A DNA stretch of 61,795 nt. Source: Candidatus Poribacteria bacterium (GTDB taxonomy: Bacteria; Abyssobacteria; SURF-5). Position numbers and translations under genes: made by a program. Positions 43,670 to 51,901 of the stretch are shown in pieces (the first letter of the stretch is position 1; each line of letters opens with the position of its first letter). The DNA is taken from the NCBI GenBank assembly GCA_016215705.1, contig JACRIR010000262.1, positions 1-61,795 of the forward strand, read 5' to 3'. The notes under the pieces were generated by a model. It was not told the DNA's origin. It searched no databases and worked only from the letters and a program-made list of their open reading frames with translations.

Positions 43670-44701
43670 ATGGAAATCCATTTTGAGAAGCGCCGGATGA
43701 TAACCAAGTTTCTTGATCCCGCGCTCAATTTCGCAGAGAACGAGCGGGTGACGGAAATCCGCGTGGACCCGCTTACAAAACAGACCACACGTTTGCTGCA
43801 TTTTCCCATACGCTGGGCTCAAAAGACTGACTTGGGCGAGATTGTAGAACGCTCGCTTGAGTTCGGTTGCCCATTTTGTCCTCAAATGATTGACATGGTC
43901 ACGCCGAAGTTTCCCACTGAGCTCACTTCAAAGGAGCGTATTCAGAGGGGGAGCGCAGTGGTCTTCCCGAACATGTTTCCCTATGACACTTACAGCGCCG
44001 TCGCAATCTTTTCGGGAGAACATTTCAAGCCCATGGCGGAATTCGAACCCCAACTCCTGCGCGACGGCTTCTGCGCGTCGCAGGAATACCTGACATCGGT
44101 CCAGGCGTCTGACCCGGGAGCGCCACTGTATCACACGATAAACTGGAACTACATGCCGCTCGCAGGAGGAACAATCATACATCCGCACCTGCAAATAATC
44201 GCCGGTAGTACGGGAACCAACTATCACCGCAGGATTCTCGAATCGAGCGCCGCATATGCGGCCGCCAACTCGAGTTCGTACTGGGCCGACTTGATCGAGG
44301 AAGAAACACGCCTCGGAGAACGGCTTATCGGAAAAGTCGGGAAAACAACGTGGCTGGTGTGTTTTGCGCCCAAGGGAATCATCGACGTCATGGCGATATT
44401 CGAGGGTGTGCTGACAATTTCCGACATCAAAGAGTCCGATTGGATGGACTTCTCGCGCGGGTTGTCAGCGGCAATGAAATTGCTCGACAGCCGCGGCTTT
44501 TACAGCCTCAACATGGCCATATATTCGGGGCAAGGCGCAGAACATTTCTGGACGCACGCGAAACTGGTTCCGCGCGCGCTGCTCCCCCCGATGAATGCAA
44601 GCGACATCAACTATTTCAACACGCTTCACAACGAGGTGCTGACGATCTTCGAGCCGGAACAAATCTGCGCTGAGGCGAAAGGATTCATTGAAAAAGCATG
44701 A
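43670..44701 (+). CDS. GalT-like nucleotidylyltransferase of the HIT superfamily
   Basis: A 343-residue protein with the HIT-type active site HPHLQ near 168 and a zinc-type CPFC near 67, both found in galactose-1-phosphate uridylyltransferases. FPNMFPYDTYSAV near 100 and EHFWTHAKLVPR near 285 also fit. No other galactose-pathway gene is nearby, so a related nucleotidyl transfer (for example ADP-glucose phosphorylase-like) is equally possible. Confidence 0.8.
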   Translation: MEIHFEKRRMITKFLDPALNFAENERVTEIRVDPLTKQTTRLLHFPIRWAQKTDLGEIVERSLEFGCPFCPQMIDMVTPKFPTELTSKERIQRGSAVVFPNMFPYDTYSAVAIFSGEHFKPMAEFEPQLLRDGFCASQEYLTSVQASDPGAPLYHTINWNYMPLAGGTIIHPHLQIIAGSTGTNYHRRILESSAAYAAANSSSYWADLIEEETRLGERLIGKVGKTTWLVCFAPKGIIDVMAIFEGVLTISDIKESDWMDFSRGLSAAMKLLDSRGFYSLNMAIYSGQGAEHFWTHAKLVPRALLPPMNASDINYFNTLHNEVLTIFEPEQICAEAKGFIEKA

Positions 44702-46960: not shown

Positions 46961-47425
46961 TCAATCAAACCGTCTGCCTTCCGCAACTGCCTTAAACACA
47001 TCCATCGCGGTCACAATGCCAACGACTTTGCCGTCCCTCAGAATCGGAACGCGATGCACGTTGAAGGAATACATGATTTTGCATACGTCCCTAACGGGCG
47101 TTAATTCAGTGGCAGTGTGGAGGTCGCGAGACATGACTTCCTCAACCCAGAGATGCTTTGTGGAAACTCCACTGGCTCCGTCAGGGTCAGCGTCGCGAGA
47201 GAAGAGCTCATAGATATCCTGGTACTCGAGATTTGAGCCAAGAACCCGGGCTTCCTCCCTAATCAGGTCTCGCACAGAGATCATACCGATCAGCCTCTTA
47301 TCCTTATCGGTCACCGGAACGCCGGTGAGACTCTTTTCGGTGAGCAGCTTTGAGAGTTCCCGAAGTGAAGCGGACTTATCCACTGTTGTGACGTTCACCT
47401 TCATTATGTCTTTAGCCAGAAGCAT
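46961..47425 (-). CDS. CBS-pair protein at the end of the diphosphoglycerate operon
   Basis: A 154-residue stand-alone CBS pair: AKDIMKVNVTTVDKSASLREL opens the first repeat and VEEVMSRDLHTATELTPV the second, each ending with a hydrophobic strand-turn-helix (RLIGMISVRDLI and KVVGIVTAMDVF). Such pairs bind AMP, ATP or similar ligands. I chose the ATG at 47425, which has GAGG six bases upstream; a TTG at 47467 would overlap the preceding gene. It is 31 bases after the mutase gene on the same strand, suggesting an energy-sensing partner of the operon (inference). Confidence 0.88.
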   Translation of the reverse strand: MLLAKDIMKVNVTTVDKSASLRELSKLLTEKSLTGVPVTDKDKRLIGMISVRDLIREEARVLGSNLEYQDIYELFSRDADPDGASGVSTKHLWVEEVMSRDLHTATELTPVRDVCKIMYSFNVHRVPILRDGKVVGIVTAMDVFKAVAEGRRFD

Positions 47426-47456
47426 TGTGCGCCTCGAATACGGATGCGTTATGGTT

Positions 47457-48710
47457 TCAGCTACCAAAACGATAGGTCACTCCCATGAGGTCAAGCAATG
47501 AAAGGAGAAAATCGTTGGCGCGGATGCGTGTAAGCCCGCCGTGAGCGCATGCGCGCTCACCGAAGCTCCTCACGTCATCGACAAGAACCCCATCCCCGTG
47601 TATGAGGACCGGCACAGGGTCAGCGCTATGTTCGCGGATAGCGCAGGGAGTCGAGTGGTCGCCGGTGACGGCTATATAGACGTCTTGAGGATTGTCGAGA
47701 GAATCGATTACTTTCTGGAGCATCCTATCCATTTGTTCGATAAAAGCCAGTTTTTCGCGAGGCTTGTTGTCGTGGGCCGTGAGGTCGGCGCCTTTAATGT
47801 GTGTGACAACGAAGTCGGCCTCTTTCAAACCCTCGACCGTGAGTCGCGCTTTCTCATCGAGATCGGTGTCTATATTGGCAGTCAGTTTTTCGTTGGTGAG
47901 GACTTTGAATCCTGACATGATAGCTATCCCTGCAACGGTGCTTTCTCCCGTAATGCAGCAGCCTTTGATATCGAACCTTTCGGTCAGGCTTCGCATCTTT
48001 ACCGCCATGCCCGCTCCGCGCGTGATCACGATGTTTGCCGGAAGAAGTCCCTTGCCCATGCGCTCCCTGTTCACATCGTGATTTCGAAGTTTCTCGTAGG
48101 ATTTACGCACGAATTGATTGACGAGTTGGGCTGTTTTCTCGGCAAGAGGCTGGCCAGACCGTTTGGGTTTGACCTCCTGAACCGGCTGACCTTCATTCGT
48201 CGGTCCGGGGTCGGAGTTAGTGATATCTGCGGACAGCCGGGGTCCGCTGAGCACCAGAACCGCGCGATGTTCCGTTGCAGGTTTGAATATGGCGTTGATC
48301 CCGTTTTCGAGCGGCATCCCGTCAAGGACGGCGGCGAGAGCTTCAGTATGTCGGATTCTGCCTGCGCGGCGATCCAGCACGATGAGATTCTCATCGACAG
48401 TCGCGAAATTGCACCGTAGCGCGACATCGCCCGGGTTGAGATCAATTCCGACGCCGACAGCCTCGATCGGACCTCTTCCCCAATAGACTTTCAAAGGGTT
48501 ATATCCGAAGAGAGCGAGGTGTCCCACGTCGGTGCCCACGCGGATGCCGGGCGAGAGTGGGTCCATCAGGCCGGTGATCCCTGTGCGCGCCAGCAAATCG
48601 AAGCATGGTGTGTTGGCGGCTTCGAGCGGAGTCAGCCCGCCGAGTTCGTCGATTGGCCGGTCACCAAGGCCATCTATAATCAACATGATTCCTTTGTGCG
48701 CTCTTGTCAT
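47457..48710 (-). CDS. apgM: Cofactor-independent phosphoglycerate mutase, archaeal ApgM type
   Basis: A 417-residue alkaline-phosphatase-superfamily enzyme interconverting 3- and 2-phosphoglycerate without 2,3-bisphosphoglycerate. Landmarks are LIIDGLGDRPI near 9, LTPLEAANTP near 25, GTDVGHLALFGYNP near 57, GRGAG-like TRGAGM near 232, HIKGADLTAHD near 305 and the metal-binding TGDHSTPC near 350. This branch is typical of archaea and some bacteria. It lies between the cyclic 2,3-diphosphoglycerate synthetase and the CBS protein, so it would set the supply of 2-phosphoglycerate for the pathway. Confidence 0.93.
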   Translation of the reverse strand: MTRAHKGIMLIIDGLGDRPIDELGGLTPLEAANTPCFDLLARTGITGLMDPLSPGIRVGTDVGHLALFGYNPLKVYWGRGPIEAVGVGIDLNPGDVALRCNFATVDENLIVLDRRAGRIRHTEALAAVLDGMPLENGINAIFKPATEHRAVLVLSGPRLSADITNSDPGPTNEGQPVQEVKPKRSGQPLAEKTAQLVNQFVRKSYEKLRNHDVNRERMGKGLLPANIVITRGAGMAVKMRSLTERFDIKGCCITGESTVAGIAIMSGFKVLTNEKLTANIDTDLDEKARLTVEGLKEADFVVTHIKGADLTAHDNKPREKLAFIEQMDRMLQKVIDSLDNPQDVYIAVTGDHSTPCAIREHSADPVPVLIHGDGVLVDDVRSFGERACAHGGLTRIRANDFLLSLLDLMGVTYRFGS

Positions 48711-48734
48711 GTTATCTTCACCAATCAGAAGAAT

Positions 48735-48760
48735 GGATTCCTGCCTTCACAGGAACGATA
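48735..48760. repeat. Degenerate inverted repeat, family R3, inside the diphosphoglycerate operon
   Basis: GGATTCCTGCCTTCACAGGAA is a drifted form of the R3 unit, followed by a second GGATTCCTGT at 48771. It fills the 69-base gap between the synthetase and mutase genes. Confidence 0.5.
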
Positions 48761-48779
48761 CAAGAATTGTGGATTCCTG

Positions 48780-50153
48780 TCACGTTGTCTTTCTTGATTT
48801 GAATCGCTCGACGGCCAGATCGGCAATCCGCAAGACTTCATTGGCGAGCCTTGCCCCGCCGTCAATCTCAAGCGGTATATTGTCCGCATATACGACCCGC
48901 AAACCCGCCTCGACAGCGACCGCAGTCGCGACATCGATGGCTGCGGCCTTCACCTCGGTCAGCAATACCGTTGGATTATTTTTTTTGAGCACTTCCGAAA
49001 TATCTGTCCGAAGCTTGGGCCGATTCGACAGATTGTGACTGATCGCAACGACGTCACACCCGAAGTTTTCCTCGAGGCTCCGGCGAATCGTGTCGCCCAT
49101 GACAGGAGGGGCAGTCGTCGTCAAGAAGACTTTTTCGGACCTGATATCATCGAGCGGCCTGGGTCTGAACACAGTTCTTGCAACACGGGCAGACGGATTC
49201 AACGCGTGAATGGCCTTGCTCATCTCATCCACTTTATTCTTGTCAGCCATCGGCTCTTCGCACATCGTGAGGACGCACAGGTCGGATTTGCGAATCCTGT
49301 AGGGGCCCATGTATCCTGTGATGTAGTCAGGCGTCTGGTGCGCGCCGATGACGAGGACCCAGGCGTCCGTCGCGACCGGCGGCATCGACGAGCCGCTTCC
49401 CTCGAAAATCACGAAGTCATTCGGAAGCTCGTTTGCAACGCGGGCCCCCTGCGGCACGACTGAAGTGAACACGACGCCGGCAAAACCTCCGCCGCATCGC
49501 CGGCATCCGATAGTCGTGAGCCGCGCCATAAGCGCATTTTCGTAGTGGTCACTCGCGGCGTGTTTGCCGCGCCGGCTTTCGGCCAGGAGATATTCGGGTG
49601 TGATGCGTACTTCCTCGCCCTTGATGACCTCGGGTTGAGGCGGACCGCCCCGGCCCATTGTGACGATACAAGGCTTGAAGCGGGCCTTCACTCCCTCTTG
49701 CCCGCTGAGAGTCCGGCCTATGTGGGCTGCGAGGGCTGTCTTGCCGACGCGTTTGCCCATGCCGCCGACCGAAAGTGAGGGCTTCATGCAGATATTCTCG
49801 AAACGCGGAGGATTGAATTGGAAATCGGCCCCTTCATATACTACACCCCGGCTGAGTATGAGGTTTGCGAATTCGAACCGCCTGCGGGAATTGACGACGG
49901 GTTCGTCGCTCAGGTCGACGGCAACGGCGGGACGGAACTCGTCGATTGCGCGAGCGATTCCGGCCAATGGATCTTTATCGATAGTTACGGGCAGGCCGAG
50001 TGCTTTCAAGTCTTCGGGAGTTCCGATCTTCTCCATTCCGCCGATGAAAACGGCGGCAACCGCCTCGTAGCCGCGACTTCCGGCGACTTCGGCAATGCCG
50101 TCTCGATTGACCGGAATGTAGTGTTCGCCGTCAATGAGGAAGAGCGCCTTCAT
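48780..50153 (-). CDS. Cyclic 2,3-diphosphoglycerate synthetase
   Basis: A 457-residue ATP-dependent enzyme that closes 2,3-diphosphoglycerate to its cyclic form, a compatible solute and phosphate store described in methanogens such as Methanothermus. It opens MKALFLIDGEHYIPV. A P-loop-like GGMGKRVGKTALAAHIG lies near 132, and later come FVIFEGSGSSMPPV near 248, HQTPDYITGYMGPYRIR near 275 and ATAVAVEAGLRVVYADN near 420. Length and order match the archaeal family. Its start overlaps the 2-phosphoglycerate kinase stop as ATGA, so the two steps are coupled in translation. A different ligase activity cannot be excluded. Confidence 0.88.
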   Translation of the reverse strand: MKALFLIDGEHYIPVNRDGIAEVAGSRGYEAVAAVFIGGMEKIGTPEDLKALGLPVTIDKDPLAGIARAIDEFRPAVAVDLSDEPVVNSRRRFEFANLILSRGVVYEGADFQFNPPRFENICMKPSLSVGGMGKRVGKTALAAHIGRTLSGQEGVKARFKPCIVTMGRGGPPQPEVIKGEEVRITPEYLLAESRRGKHAASDHYENALMARLTTIGCRRCGGGFAGVVFTSVVPQGARVANELPNDFVIFEGSGSSMPPVATDAWVLVIGAHQTPDYITGYMGPYRIRKSDLCVLTMCEEPMADKNKVDEMSKAIHALNPSARVARTVFRPRPLDDIRSEKVFLTTTAPPVMGDTIRRSLEENFGCDVVAISHNLSNRPKLRTDISEVLKKNNPTVLLTEVKAAAIDVATAVAVEAGLRVVYADNIPLEIDGGARLANEVLRIADLAVERFKSRKTT

Positions 50154-51331
50154 TTTGTTTTCCCGATGCGGGTCTTGTCGTGGCGTCTGACAAACGCGGT
50201 GAGGTGTTCCACTATCGTCGCCACGAGTTGATCGAAGTCTTTGTTATCAAACACCGGCACATCGTGCTTGATTGCCTGCTCGACAATGAAGTCCTGTATT
50301 TTCCGTATCGAGTCGAAATTGCTCAAGTATTTCTCTGCTCCACGAGTGGACGCCTGCTGGCCGCGGATATTGAAGCGCTCGCGGTGAATGTCTTGGTCTT
50401 CGGTGGTTATTACCATTCTGCACACGAGCGCCTTGCCCGCATAGTCCCTCTTTATGCAGCCGGGCACGACGTGTACGCCGTCTATTATGGTGCTGATCTT
50501 TTCATTCAAAGCGCGGTCCATGAGCGCATAGATGCCCGCCGACACCCGAAGCGCCTGTTCCATGAACGCAGCAATCACAATGTCATCCTGAATTCCCTTT
50601 GGCAAGTCGTACGCTTTCCATGCGTCGAATGACGATTTGTGTATCGTCGGCATGAGTTCGGGCGAGAACATGATGCGCATCACTTCCCGCACTGAGTCAG
50701 TGGATATGACGCGCGTGATTCCGAGACGGTGGGCAAGTTCGACGGCTATCGTGGATTTGCCTGTTCCGGCGGTTCCTCCGAGCAGAATGATGAGCGGGCG
50801 GAGTGGTTTCTTAAGGCGGCGCCAAAGCAGATAGCGATTCGCATAGCCCGAGCCGTATTTCTTGCGGAGGGTCTCGACTGTCAGGTCGCGCAGTCCATCG
50901 TAGGTCACTTCTCCCCTTCCGCGGCGAAGCAGAGTTCGCTCGATGGCCATCGCCAGAGAGTGCGAGATGTTCGGCTCGATGCCGGAAGCCTCGAGTGACT
51001 GCGAGAGGATTCCTTTTGAGAAGGGAACGCCGGAACCCGCTCCCTTCACGAGAATGGAAGATGAGAGTTTCTTGCGCTCGAGGTATTTTTCGGCCATCTC
51101 CTCGCCGTACTCGCGTAGGAGCAAGTCGTGAACCATGCGTCTGAGTTGCGTCTTTTCGATCCGCATCGTTCTCCGTTTGAGCAGGCGCGCTTCCATTCTC
51201 TCTGCGATGCCATAAGCTTCGGCGGGTTTCAGGCCGATCATAAGGAGCCCCTGCGAGAGGATTCCTTTTGAAAACGGGAACCGCAGGCCTTTGTTCACCA
51301 CCACAGGGTATTTGCTTTTTATCGCTTTCAT
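50150..51331 (-). CDS. 2-phosphoglycerate kinase with duplicated ATP-cone-like domain
   Basis: A kinase of about 393 residues that phosphorylates 2-phosphoglycerate to 2,3-diphosphoglycerate, the first committed step to the cyclic compound. The C-terminal P-loop domain has GGTAGTGKSTIAVELAHRLG near 190 and STDSVREVMR near 213. Before it are two related segments of about 85 residues, each starting PFSKGILSQ and containing a Met-Glu or Ile-Glu helix, resembling ATP-cone nucleotide-sensing domains. I start at the ATG at 51331; a GTG at 51367 lies at or before the expected transcription start. It is the promoter-proximal gene of the operon. Confidence 0.9.
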   Translation of the reverse strand: MKAIKSKYPVVVNKGLRFPFSKGILSQGLLMIGLKPAEAYGIAERMEARLLKRRTMRIEKTQLRRMVHDLLLREYGEEMAEKYLERKKLSSSILVKGAGSGVPFSKGILSQSLEASGIEPNISHSLAMAIERTLLRRGRGEVTYDGLRDLTVETLRKKYGSGYANRYLLWRRLKKPLRPLIILLGGTAGTGKSTIAVELAHRLGITRVISTDSVREVMRIMFSPELMPTIHKSSFDAWKAYDLPKGIQDDIVIAAFMEQALRVSAGIYALMDRALNEKISTIIDGVHVVPGCIKRDYAGKALVCRMVITTEDQDIHRERFNIRGQQASTRGAEKYLSNFDSIRKIQDFIVEQAIKHDVPVFDNKDFDQLVATIVEHLTAFVRRHDKTRIGKTK

Positions 51332-51370
51332 CGCACTCACTCTGATTCGAGACGACAAATTTCTCACTTC

Positions 51371-51399
51371 AGTCTAGCACAGGCTAATTGGAGTGTCAA
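51371..51399 (-). promoter_or_regulatory. Sigma-70-type promoter of the diphosphoglycerate operon
   Basis: The minus strand shows TTGACA (51399-51394), 17 bases, then TAGACT (51376-51371). Transcription would start near 51364, which rules out the GTG at 51367 as a start codon. Confidence 0.75.
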
Positions 51400-51562: not shown

Positions 51563-51901
51563 ATGACCCAACAACGCGGGCTGTGGTCTTGGTTGCTTCA
51601 GCGAGTAACGGGCGCCTATCTTATCTTTGGGATGGCCGTTCATATCATCGTGCTTCCGCTCGGCAAGGGAACCATAACGTTTGACAGCGTGGCATCGCGA
51701 CTGCGCCAGCCGGGTTGGGCGCTATTTGATTTCCTGCTTCTCACGGTCTGCGTGTATCATGGCTTCAATGGGCTGTGGTCGGTCTTCACGGATTTCAACC
51801 CGCCGGCGAAACTGAGGCAAGGTATCGGCTGGTGTCTGGCCTTATTCGGACTGATTTGGGTTATCTTCGGCGTCTTCGTACTGGTCCCTTTCACCAGATA
51901 G
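51563..51901 (+). CDS. sdhD: Succinate dehydrogenase membrane anchor, SdhD-like
   Basis: A 112-residue protein with three membrane helices. RVTGAYLIFGMAVHI holds a His in the first helix. YHGFNGLWSVFTDF in the second matches the SdhD motif around the haem-ligand His and the quinone-site Asp-aromatic pair. It anchors the enzyme in the inner membrane and helps bind quinone and haem b. It starts the operon D-C-A-B and precedes the second anchor by 10 bases. Confidence 0.85.
   Translation: MTQQRGLWSWLLQRVTGAYLIFGMAVHIIVLPLGKGTITFDSVASRLRQPGWALFDFLLLTVCVYHGFNGLWSVFTDFNPPAKLRQGIGWCLALFGLIWVIFGVFVLVPFTR

Follow-up and report, generated by a model that had tools for sequence, protein, structure and literature searches.

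The window, which is the whole stretch of 61,795 nucleotides that was analysed, has four open reading frames in a row on its minus strand. In order of transcription they are predicted to encode 2-phosphoglycerate kinase (2PGK), cyclic 2,3-diphosphoglycerate (cDPG) synthetase (cDPGS), an archaeal-type phosphoglycerate mutase (apgM) and a CBS-pair protein (Table 1), as a sequence-only reading of this DNA had listed them. The four-base overlap of the first two genes, also claimed there, is exactly ATGA (50153–50150), with the ATG of cDPGS placed over the stop codon of 2PGK. The same reading called the arrangement compact. The four genes do follow one another directly, but the cDPGS–apgM spacing of 69 bp is about 65 bp longer than the 4–6 bp in two relatives. 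A dispersed repeat was sought in this gap, and one further weak match was found, at chance level. For the CBS-pair gene an alternative ATG start at 47425 gives a protein of 154 residues and abolishes the overlap with apgM; it is a likelier start than the TTG.

The four genes had been placed behind one promoter. A sigma-70-like site does lie at the right position upstream of 2PGK, but the consensus match in itself is weak, as five sites of this kind were found in the region with 2.9 expected by chance. A succinate dehydrogenase operon diverges from the locus, starting at 51563. The window also holds an open reading frame of 343 residues at nt 43670–44701 that matches no Pfam or NCBIfam model. 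Its counterpart in the genome SURF_17 lies beside the locus and is 70% identical; the name "galT-like" used for it here is a provisional label.

Table 1. Features of the locus in window coordinates, in order of transcription
Feature	Position	Strand	Details
Sigma-70-like promoter	51371..51399	-	TTGACA-17 bp-TAGACT, extended -10 TG; 10/12 consensus matches only
2PGK	50150..51367	-	GTG start, 405 aa; PRK04220, PF03477
cDPGS	48780..50153	-	457 aa; N-terminal domain and P-loop domain (GMGKRVGKT)
cDPGS–apgM gap	48711..48779	-	69 bp; weak stem-loop 48756-48737
apgM, archaeal-type cofactor-independent phosphoglycerate mutase	47457..48710	-	417 aa; PRK04024
CBS-pair protein, probable nucleotide-sensing regulator	46961..47467	-	TTG start, 168 aa; PF00571 twice

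Assignment of the four proteins

Pfam and NCBIfam have no model for cDPGS, and the protein was identified by comparison with the solved Methanothermus fervidus enzyme (PDB 8oru/8ork). The phmmer alignment covers residues 2–454 with an E value of 3.4e-131, and this full-length homology to 8oru takes in the N-terminal domain, which has no known relatives. In the M. fervidus structure, with ADP, Mg and 2,3-diphosphoglycerate (2,3-DPG) as ligands, E45 of the partner subunit, K145, R146, T150, D208, E305, T353 and E404 hold the substrate or the nucleotide, and K46 adjoins E45 (PMC10690619). We aligned 43 homologues using the 8ork numbering. The window cDPGS is identical at E45, K46, K145, R146, K149, T150, D208, E305, T353 and E404, and T143M and I147V are the only changes in the Walker A region. 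P335 is listed in PMC10690619, position 335 of 8ork is F, and F335-R336-P337 is retained in the window.

This check of the ligand residues discriminates, since two kinds of homologue fail to keep them. The homologue of genome G385 (L043:7050–8438) carries E14S, H15Y, E45D, K46L, C226A, E305Q and R336E. Distant homologues of about 430 residues in the phylum of G385 (L096–L100) are without the substrate-binding residues and served solely as outgroup. The latter form a separate, apparently uncharacterised P-loop family. G385 has the four-gene order intact, but with its ligand residues lost the homologue was not counted as a functional cDPGS. It may have a new activity, and the retention of the operon with a degenerate cDPGS suggests that the locus can drift in function.

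The whole 2PGK protein scores 374.2 bits against PRK04220 (cut-off 343). The best single stretch reaches 320.7 bits and the two cone stretches lift the total, and the protein passes this equivalog cut-off as a borderline case. The model for mevalonate-3-phosphate 5-kinase gives 87.5 bits. The ATP-cone-like repeats reported from the sequence proved to be genuine tandem ATP-cones by the cone profile, with a PF03477 match, at about residues 22–101 and 107–187; they precede a P-loop kinase domain with the Walker A motif GGTAGTGKST and share 35% identity (E 4e-13). Two cones were found in eight bacterial 2PGKs, those of the three Abyssobacteria, Coatesbacteria, G314, G180, G106 and G385. A single cone was found in all seven archaeal 2PGKs tested and in those of Omnitrophota, Actinomycetes, G380 and G242. 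A sequence search of the PDB returned no solved 2PGK. In the structural model, whose confidence is moderate (pLDDT 69), one succession of elements appears twice ahead of a P-loop kinase part that resembles nucleotide and gluconate kinases in fold. The methanogen 2PGKs of L044 and L046 have threonine in place of the Walker A lysine (GGASGVGTS); bacterial and Thermococcales-like 2PGKs retain GK[ST].

The operon apgM scores 507.3 bits against PRK04024 (cut-off 489). It is one of three apgM-type genes in the window's genome. Each of the Abyssobacteria has two to three such genes, and no bacterial-type iPGM was found in Abyssobacteria genomes. Further copies besides the operon apgM are present in G000, G001, G002, G385 and G386. 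The apgM tree joins the operon copies with the Coatesbacteria-type apgMs in a single clade (100/99), and the remaining apgM-type paralogues from these genomes lie outside it; within this clade the operon apgMs are not separated as a group of their own from the unlinked Coatesbacteria-type genes. With curated models for 2PGK and apgM and a solved structure for cDPGS, the three enzyme assignments are strong as predictions, and the direct path from 3-phosphoglycerate to cDPG proposed in the sequence-only reading stands on the same footing.

The CBS-pair gene, whose product has two Pfam CBS motifs, adjoins 2PGK or comes next in the operon in Abyssobacteria, Omnitrophota, G385 and G380. It follows 2PGK in G380 and also in the archaeon G578 and the methanogen loci L045 and L046. 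The strongest argument for counting the CBS protein as part of the system is this recurring linkage to 2PGK across genomes. The ATP-cones of ribonucleotide reductase sense ATP and dATP, adenine nucleotides are often bound by CBS pairs, and both kinds of domain bind nucleotides in other proteins. Control by the energy state can therefore fairly be inferred, and by analogy nucleotide control through the two ATP-cones is plausible.

Distribution and gene order

The window's genome is an assembly of 5.47 Mb, 92% complete. Its closest relatives among the genomes compared are Candidatus Abyssobacteria, and all three members of the family have the operon. The cDPGS proteins of the same-family genomes G001 and G002 are 72–74% identical to that of the window. 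Among 386 genomes spread over Bacteria cDPGS is present in ten; outside the family it is found in seven of 383, in five family groups. Carriers that could be given a name belong to Omnitrophota (L004) and Coatesbacteria (L005), and one is an Actinomycetes MAG (L018). Within Omnitrophota it occurs in one of 334 genomes, and within Archaea in 37 of 297.

A search of related genomes for the same gene order, suggested along with the original claim, found 2PGK-cDPGS-apgM-CBS complete in three Abyssobacteria and in the Omnitrophota genome. The recurrence of this order in independent genomes places the arrangement far beyond chance. SURF_17 has fadD-like and galT-like flanking genes in common with the window, and its three enzymes exhibit 74–82% identity to those of the window. 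Other orders are also seen. 2PGK precedes cDPGS directly in G106 and G242; cDPGS comes before 2PGK in G380, the Actinomycetes MAG and Thermococcales-like archaea; and the two genes are on separate contigs in Coatesbacteria and two genomes of family f34.

Some neighbouring genes deserve mention. In the Coatesbacteria locus cDPGS has a radical SAM gene on one side and a LolA gene on the other, with 2PGK on another contig. A radical SAM gene likewise precedes cDPGS in L040 of the f34 group, where 2PGK is again on another contig. In the Actinomycetes MAG (L018:1–801) a calcineurin-like phosphoesterase gene stands directly before cDPGS and is a candidate for a cDPG hydrolase.

The literature was covered through open-access papers, and no report of the cDPG pathway in bacteria was found there. 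The suggestion of an under-described bacterial use is borne out to that extent by the presence of the operon in bacteria.

Role of cDPG and origin of the operon

The reading that we favour, with somewhat better than even confidence, is that of a bacterial cDPG operon whose product serves as a nucleotide-gated reserve of phosphate and carbon, and perhaps also of phosphoanhydride energy. ApgM would convert 3-phosphoglycerate to 2-phosphoglycerate, 2PGK would phosphorylate this with ATP to 2,3-DPG, and cDPGS would use a second ATP to close the intramolecular phosphoanhydride of cDPG. The compound would accumulate as a soluble store in slow-growing, probably mesophilic anaerobes. The nucleotide level would gate the flux into this store by acting on the paired ATP-cones of 2PGK and on the CBS-pair protein, and release from the store may also be under the control of the latter. 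We know of no cDPG hydrolase identified in sequence, and thus the operon as it can be read lacks a step for release.

The temperature of the hosts bears on this role. Reverse gyrase is absent from all 13 bacterial carriers, and M. fervidus was positive in the same search. Two published Abyssubacteria genomes come from fluid of 22 C at a depth of 1,500 m (PMC6121073). The host of the operon, whose MAG is 92% complete, is probably mesophilic, or at least not heat-loving, and the bacterial carriers appear not to be the hyperthermophilic hosts that a thermoprotectant system calls for. Growth temperature was also estimated from IVYWREL in the small loci. The value for the window was 46 C, but the method placed the M. 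fervidus loci at only 58 C and was discarded.

The 2023 structural paper described cDPG as a thermoprotectant exclusive to hyperthermophilic archaeal methanogens (PMC10690619). It was also reported that cDPG occurs in Methanobrevibacter smithii, that it may be a store of carbon and phosphate, and that the synthetase of M. fervidus can also work in the direction of ATP (PMC1224877). A 2009 genome paper suspected another role for the 2PGK of mesophilic methanogens (PMC2686161), and phosphorus-limited Methanothermobacter maintains its cell phosphorus content via cDPG (PMC4302986). These precedents, together with the lack of reverse gyrase and the relatives at 22 C, favour a phosphate or energy store. 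The sparse distribution of cDPGS in Bacteria (7/383 outside the family and 1/334 in Omnitrophota) fits a lineage-specific use equally well as a general store. A bolder and decidedly tentative extension is that in several deep-branching, energy-limited bacterial lineages cDPG serves as a phosphagen, a soluble reserve of phosphate and energy that has no tie to heat. It would be filled by the dedicated operon, switched by the tandem ATP-cones and a CBS-pair sensor, and reversed to ATP at times of energy shortage.

Could cDPG instead be a classical compatible solute, a thermo- or osmoprotectant and counter-ion for K+, as in hyperthermophilic methanogens? The enzymes are the same as in M. fervidus, the charge of -3 could balance K+ (PMC4302986), and use of cDPG against heat has been suggested for thermophilic ammonia-oxidising archaea (PMC5797428, PMC7819960). 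We consider this unlikely, and protection against heat is disfavoured because the 13 bacterial carriers have no reverse gyrase and the relatives were collected at 22 C; moreover, a mesophilic methanogen accumulates cDPG too (PMC1224877), and the 2PGK of mesophilic methanogens has been argued to act otherwise (PMC2686161). At low temperature cDPG may still act osmotically. Much less probable is a gluconeogenic branch, in which cDPG would be an intermediate on the way to stored carbon or to cell-wall material and sugars, and not a phosphate or energy reserve. Methanothermobacter does turn cDPG over quickly into a polymer pool (PMC1224877), but in the loci with annotated neighbours none of the adjoining genes was recognised as polymer-making, save in G242, where a sugar nucleotidyltransferase gene precedes 2PGK.

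The remaining alternatives concern the substrate and the origin of the genes. P-loop small-molecule kinases readily shift substrates. The bacterial enzymes might have moved to a related phosphate ester; alternatively, 2,3-DPG might itself be the useful product, for example as a mutase cofactor. The G385 homologue, with several ligand residues lost in the same operon layout, is in line with such a change, as is the known 2PGK of Thermus and Deinococcus relatives (PMC1274311), where cDPGS is not reported. This is somewhat less likely than the solute role: the window keeps all reported contacts to ADP, Mg and 2,3-DPG, the whole path from 3-phosphoglycerate is assembled, and 2,3-DPG makes little sense as cofactor for an operon mutase that is cofactor-independent. 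As to origin, archaeal-type enzymes and a patchy distribution could speak for a recent archaeal transfer without metabolic integration, or for a misbinned archaeal contig. In the cDPGS tree with long-branch rows left out, the ten bacterial sequences form one clade (97/94) against 21 archaeal rows; with the long branches kept, the base is without resolution. The 2PGK tree, with many long branches, groups 11 of 12 bacterial sequences weakly (85/82) and was set aside as an arbiter of origin. The GC content of the operon is 0.554 and that of the host 0.551, and GC3 is also close to that of host genes. The bacterial cDPGS clade, the host-like GC and GC3 and the sharing of the operon by the whole family show that it is long established in the lineage. 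SURF_17 has the same locus with its flanks, G001 has the operon, and a succinate dehydrogenase operon flanks the window's copy. Transfer from archaea was one of the two explanations first offered; a recent one, or misbinning, is thereby largely refuted and is the least probable of the alternatives, whereas an old exchange between the domains may have taken place.

The closest known system is the M. fervidus pathway (8ork, 8oru). Both have two ATP-using steps, and their cDPGS proteins align over the whole length, with the ligand residues and the unusual N-terminal domain in common. The window differs in being bacterial and probably mesophilic, in having 2PGK, cDPGS, apgM and CBS in one operon, in the two ATP-cones of its 2PGK (one in the archaeal 2PGKs tested) and in the separate clade of its cDPGS. 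The Thermococcales-like cDPGS-2PGK pairs (PDB 9sxb group) also have both genes adjacent on one strand, and in archaeon G578 a CBS-pair gene lies next to the pair. Unlike the window, these pairs have cDPGS ahead of 2PGK, no apgM and one ATP-cone, and their cDPGS is of about 430 residues and in a distinct clade. The 2PGK of Thermus and Deinococcus (COG2074, PRK12337) is bacterial as well and was noted earlier as an archaeal-type gene (PMC1274311), but no cDPGS partner is reported there, and the window 2PGK, at 365 bits, falls under the PRK12337 cut-off of 603.

Each enzyme and each family was already known. Judged by the open-access literature, three things are new: the occurrence in bacteria, the operon of four genes that includes the mutase and the CBS protein, and the doubling of the ATP-cone. 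They may have been noticed elsewhere. The finding provides enzymes for cDPG production from probably non-thermophilic sources and a natural example of a kinase with doubled ATP-cones. A conserved bacterial operon with relatives at 22 C makes it unlikely that heat is the sole purpose of cDPG, and this purpose becomes testable through comparison of the hosts.
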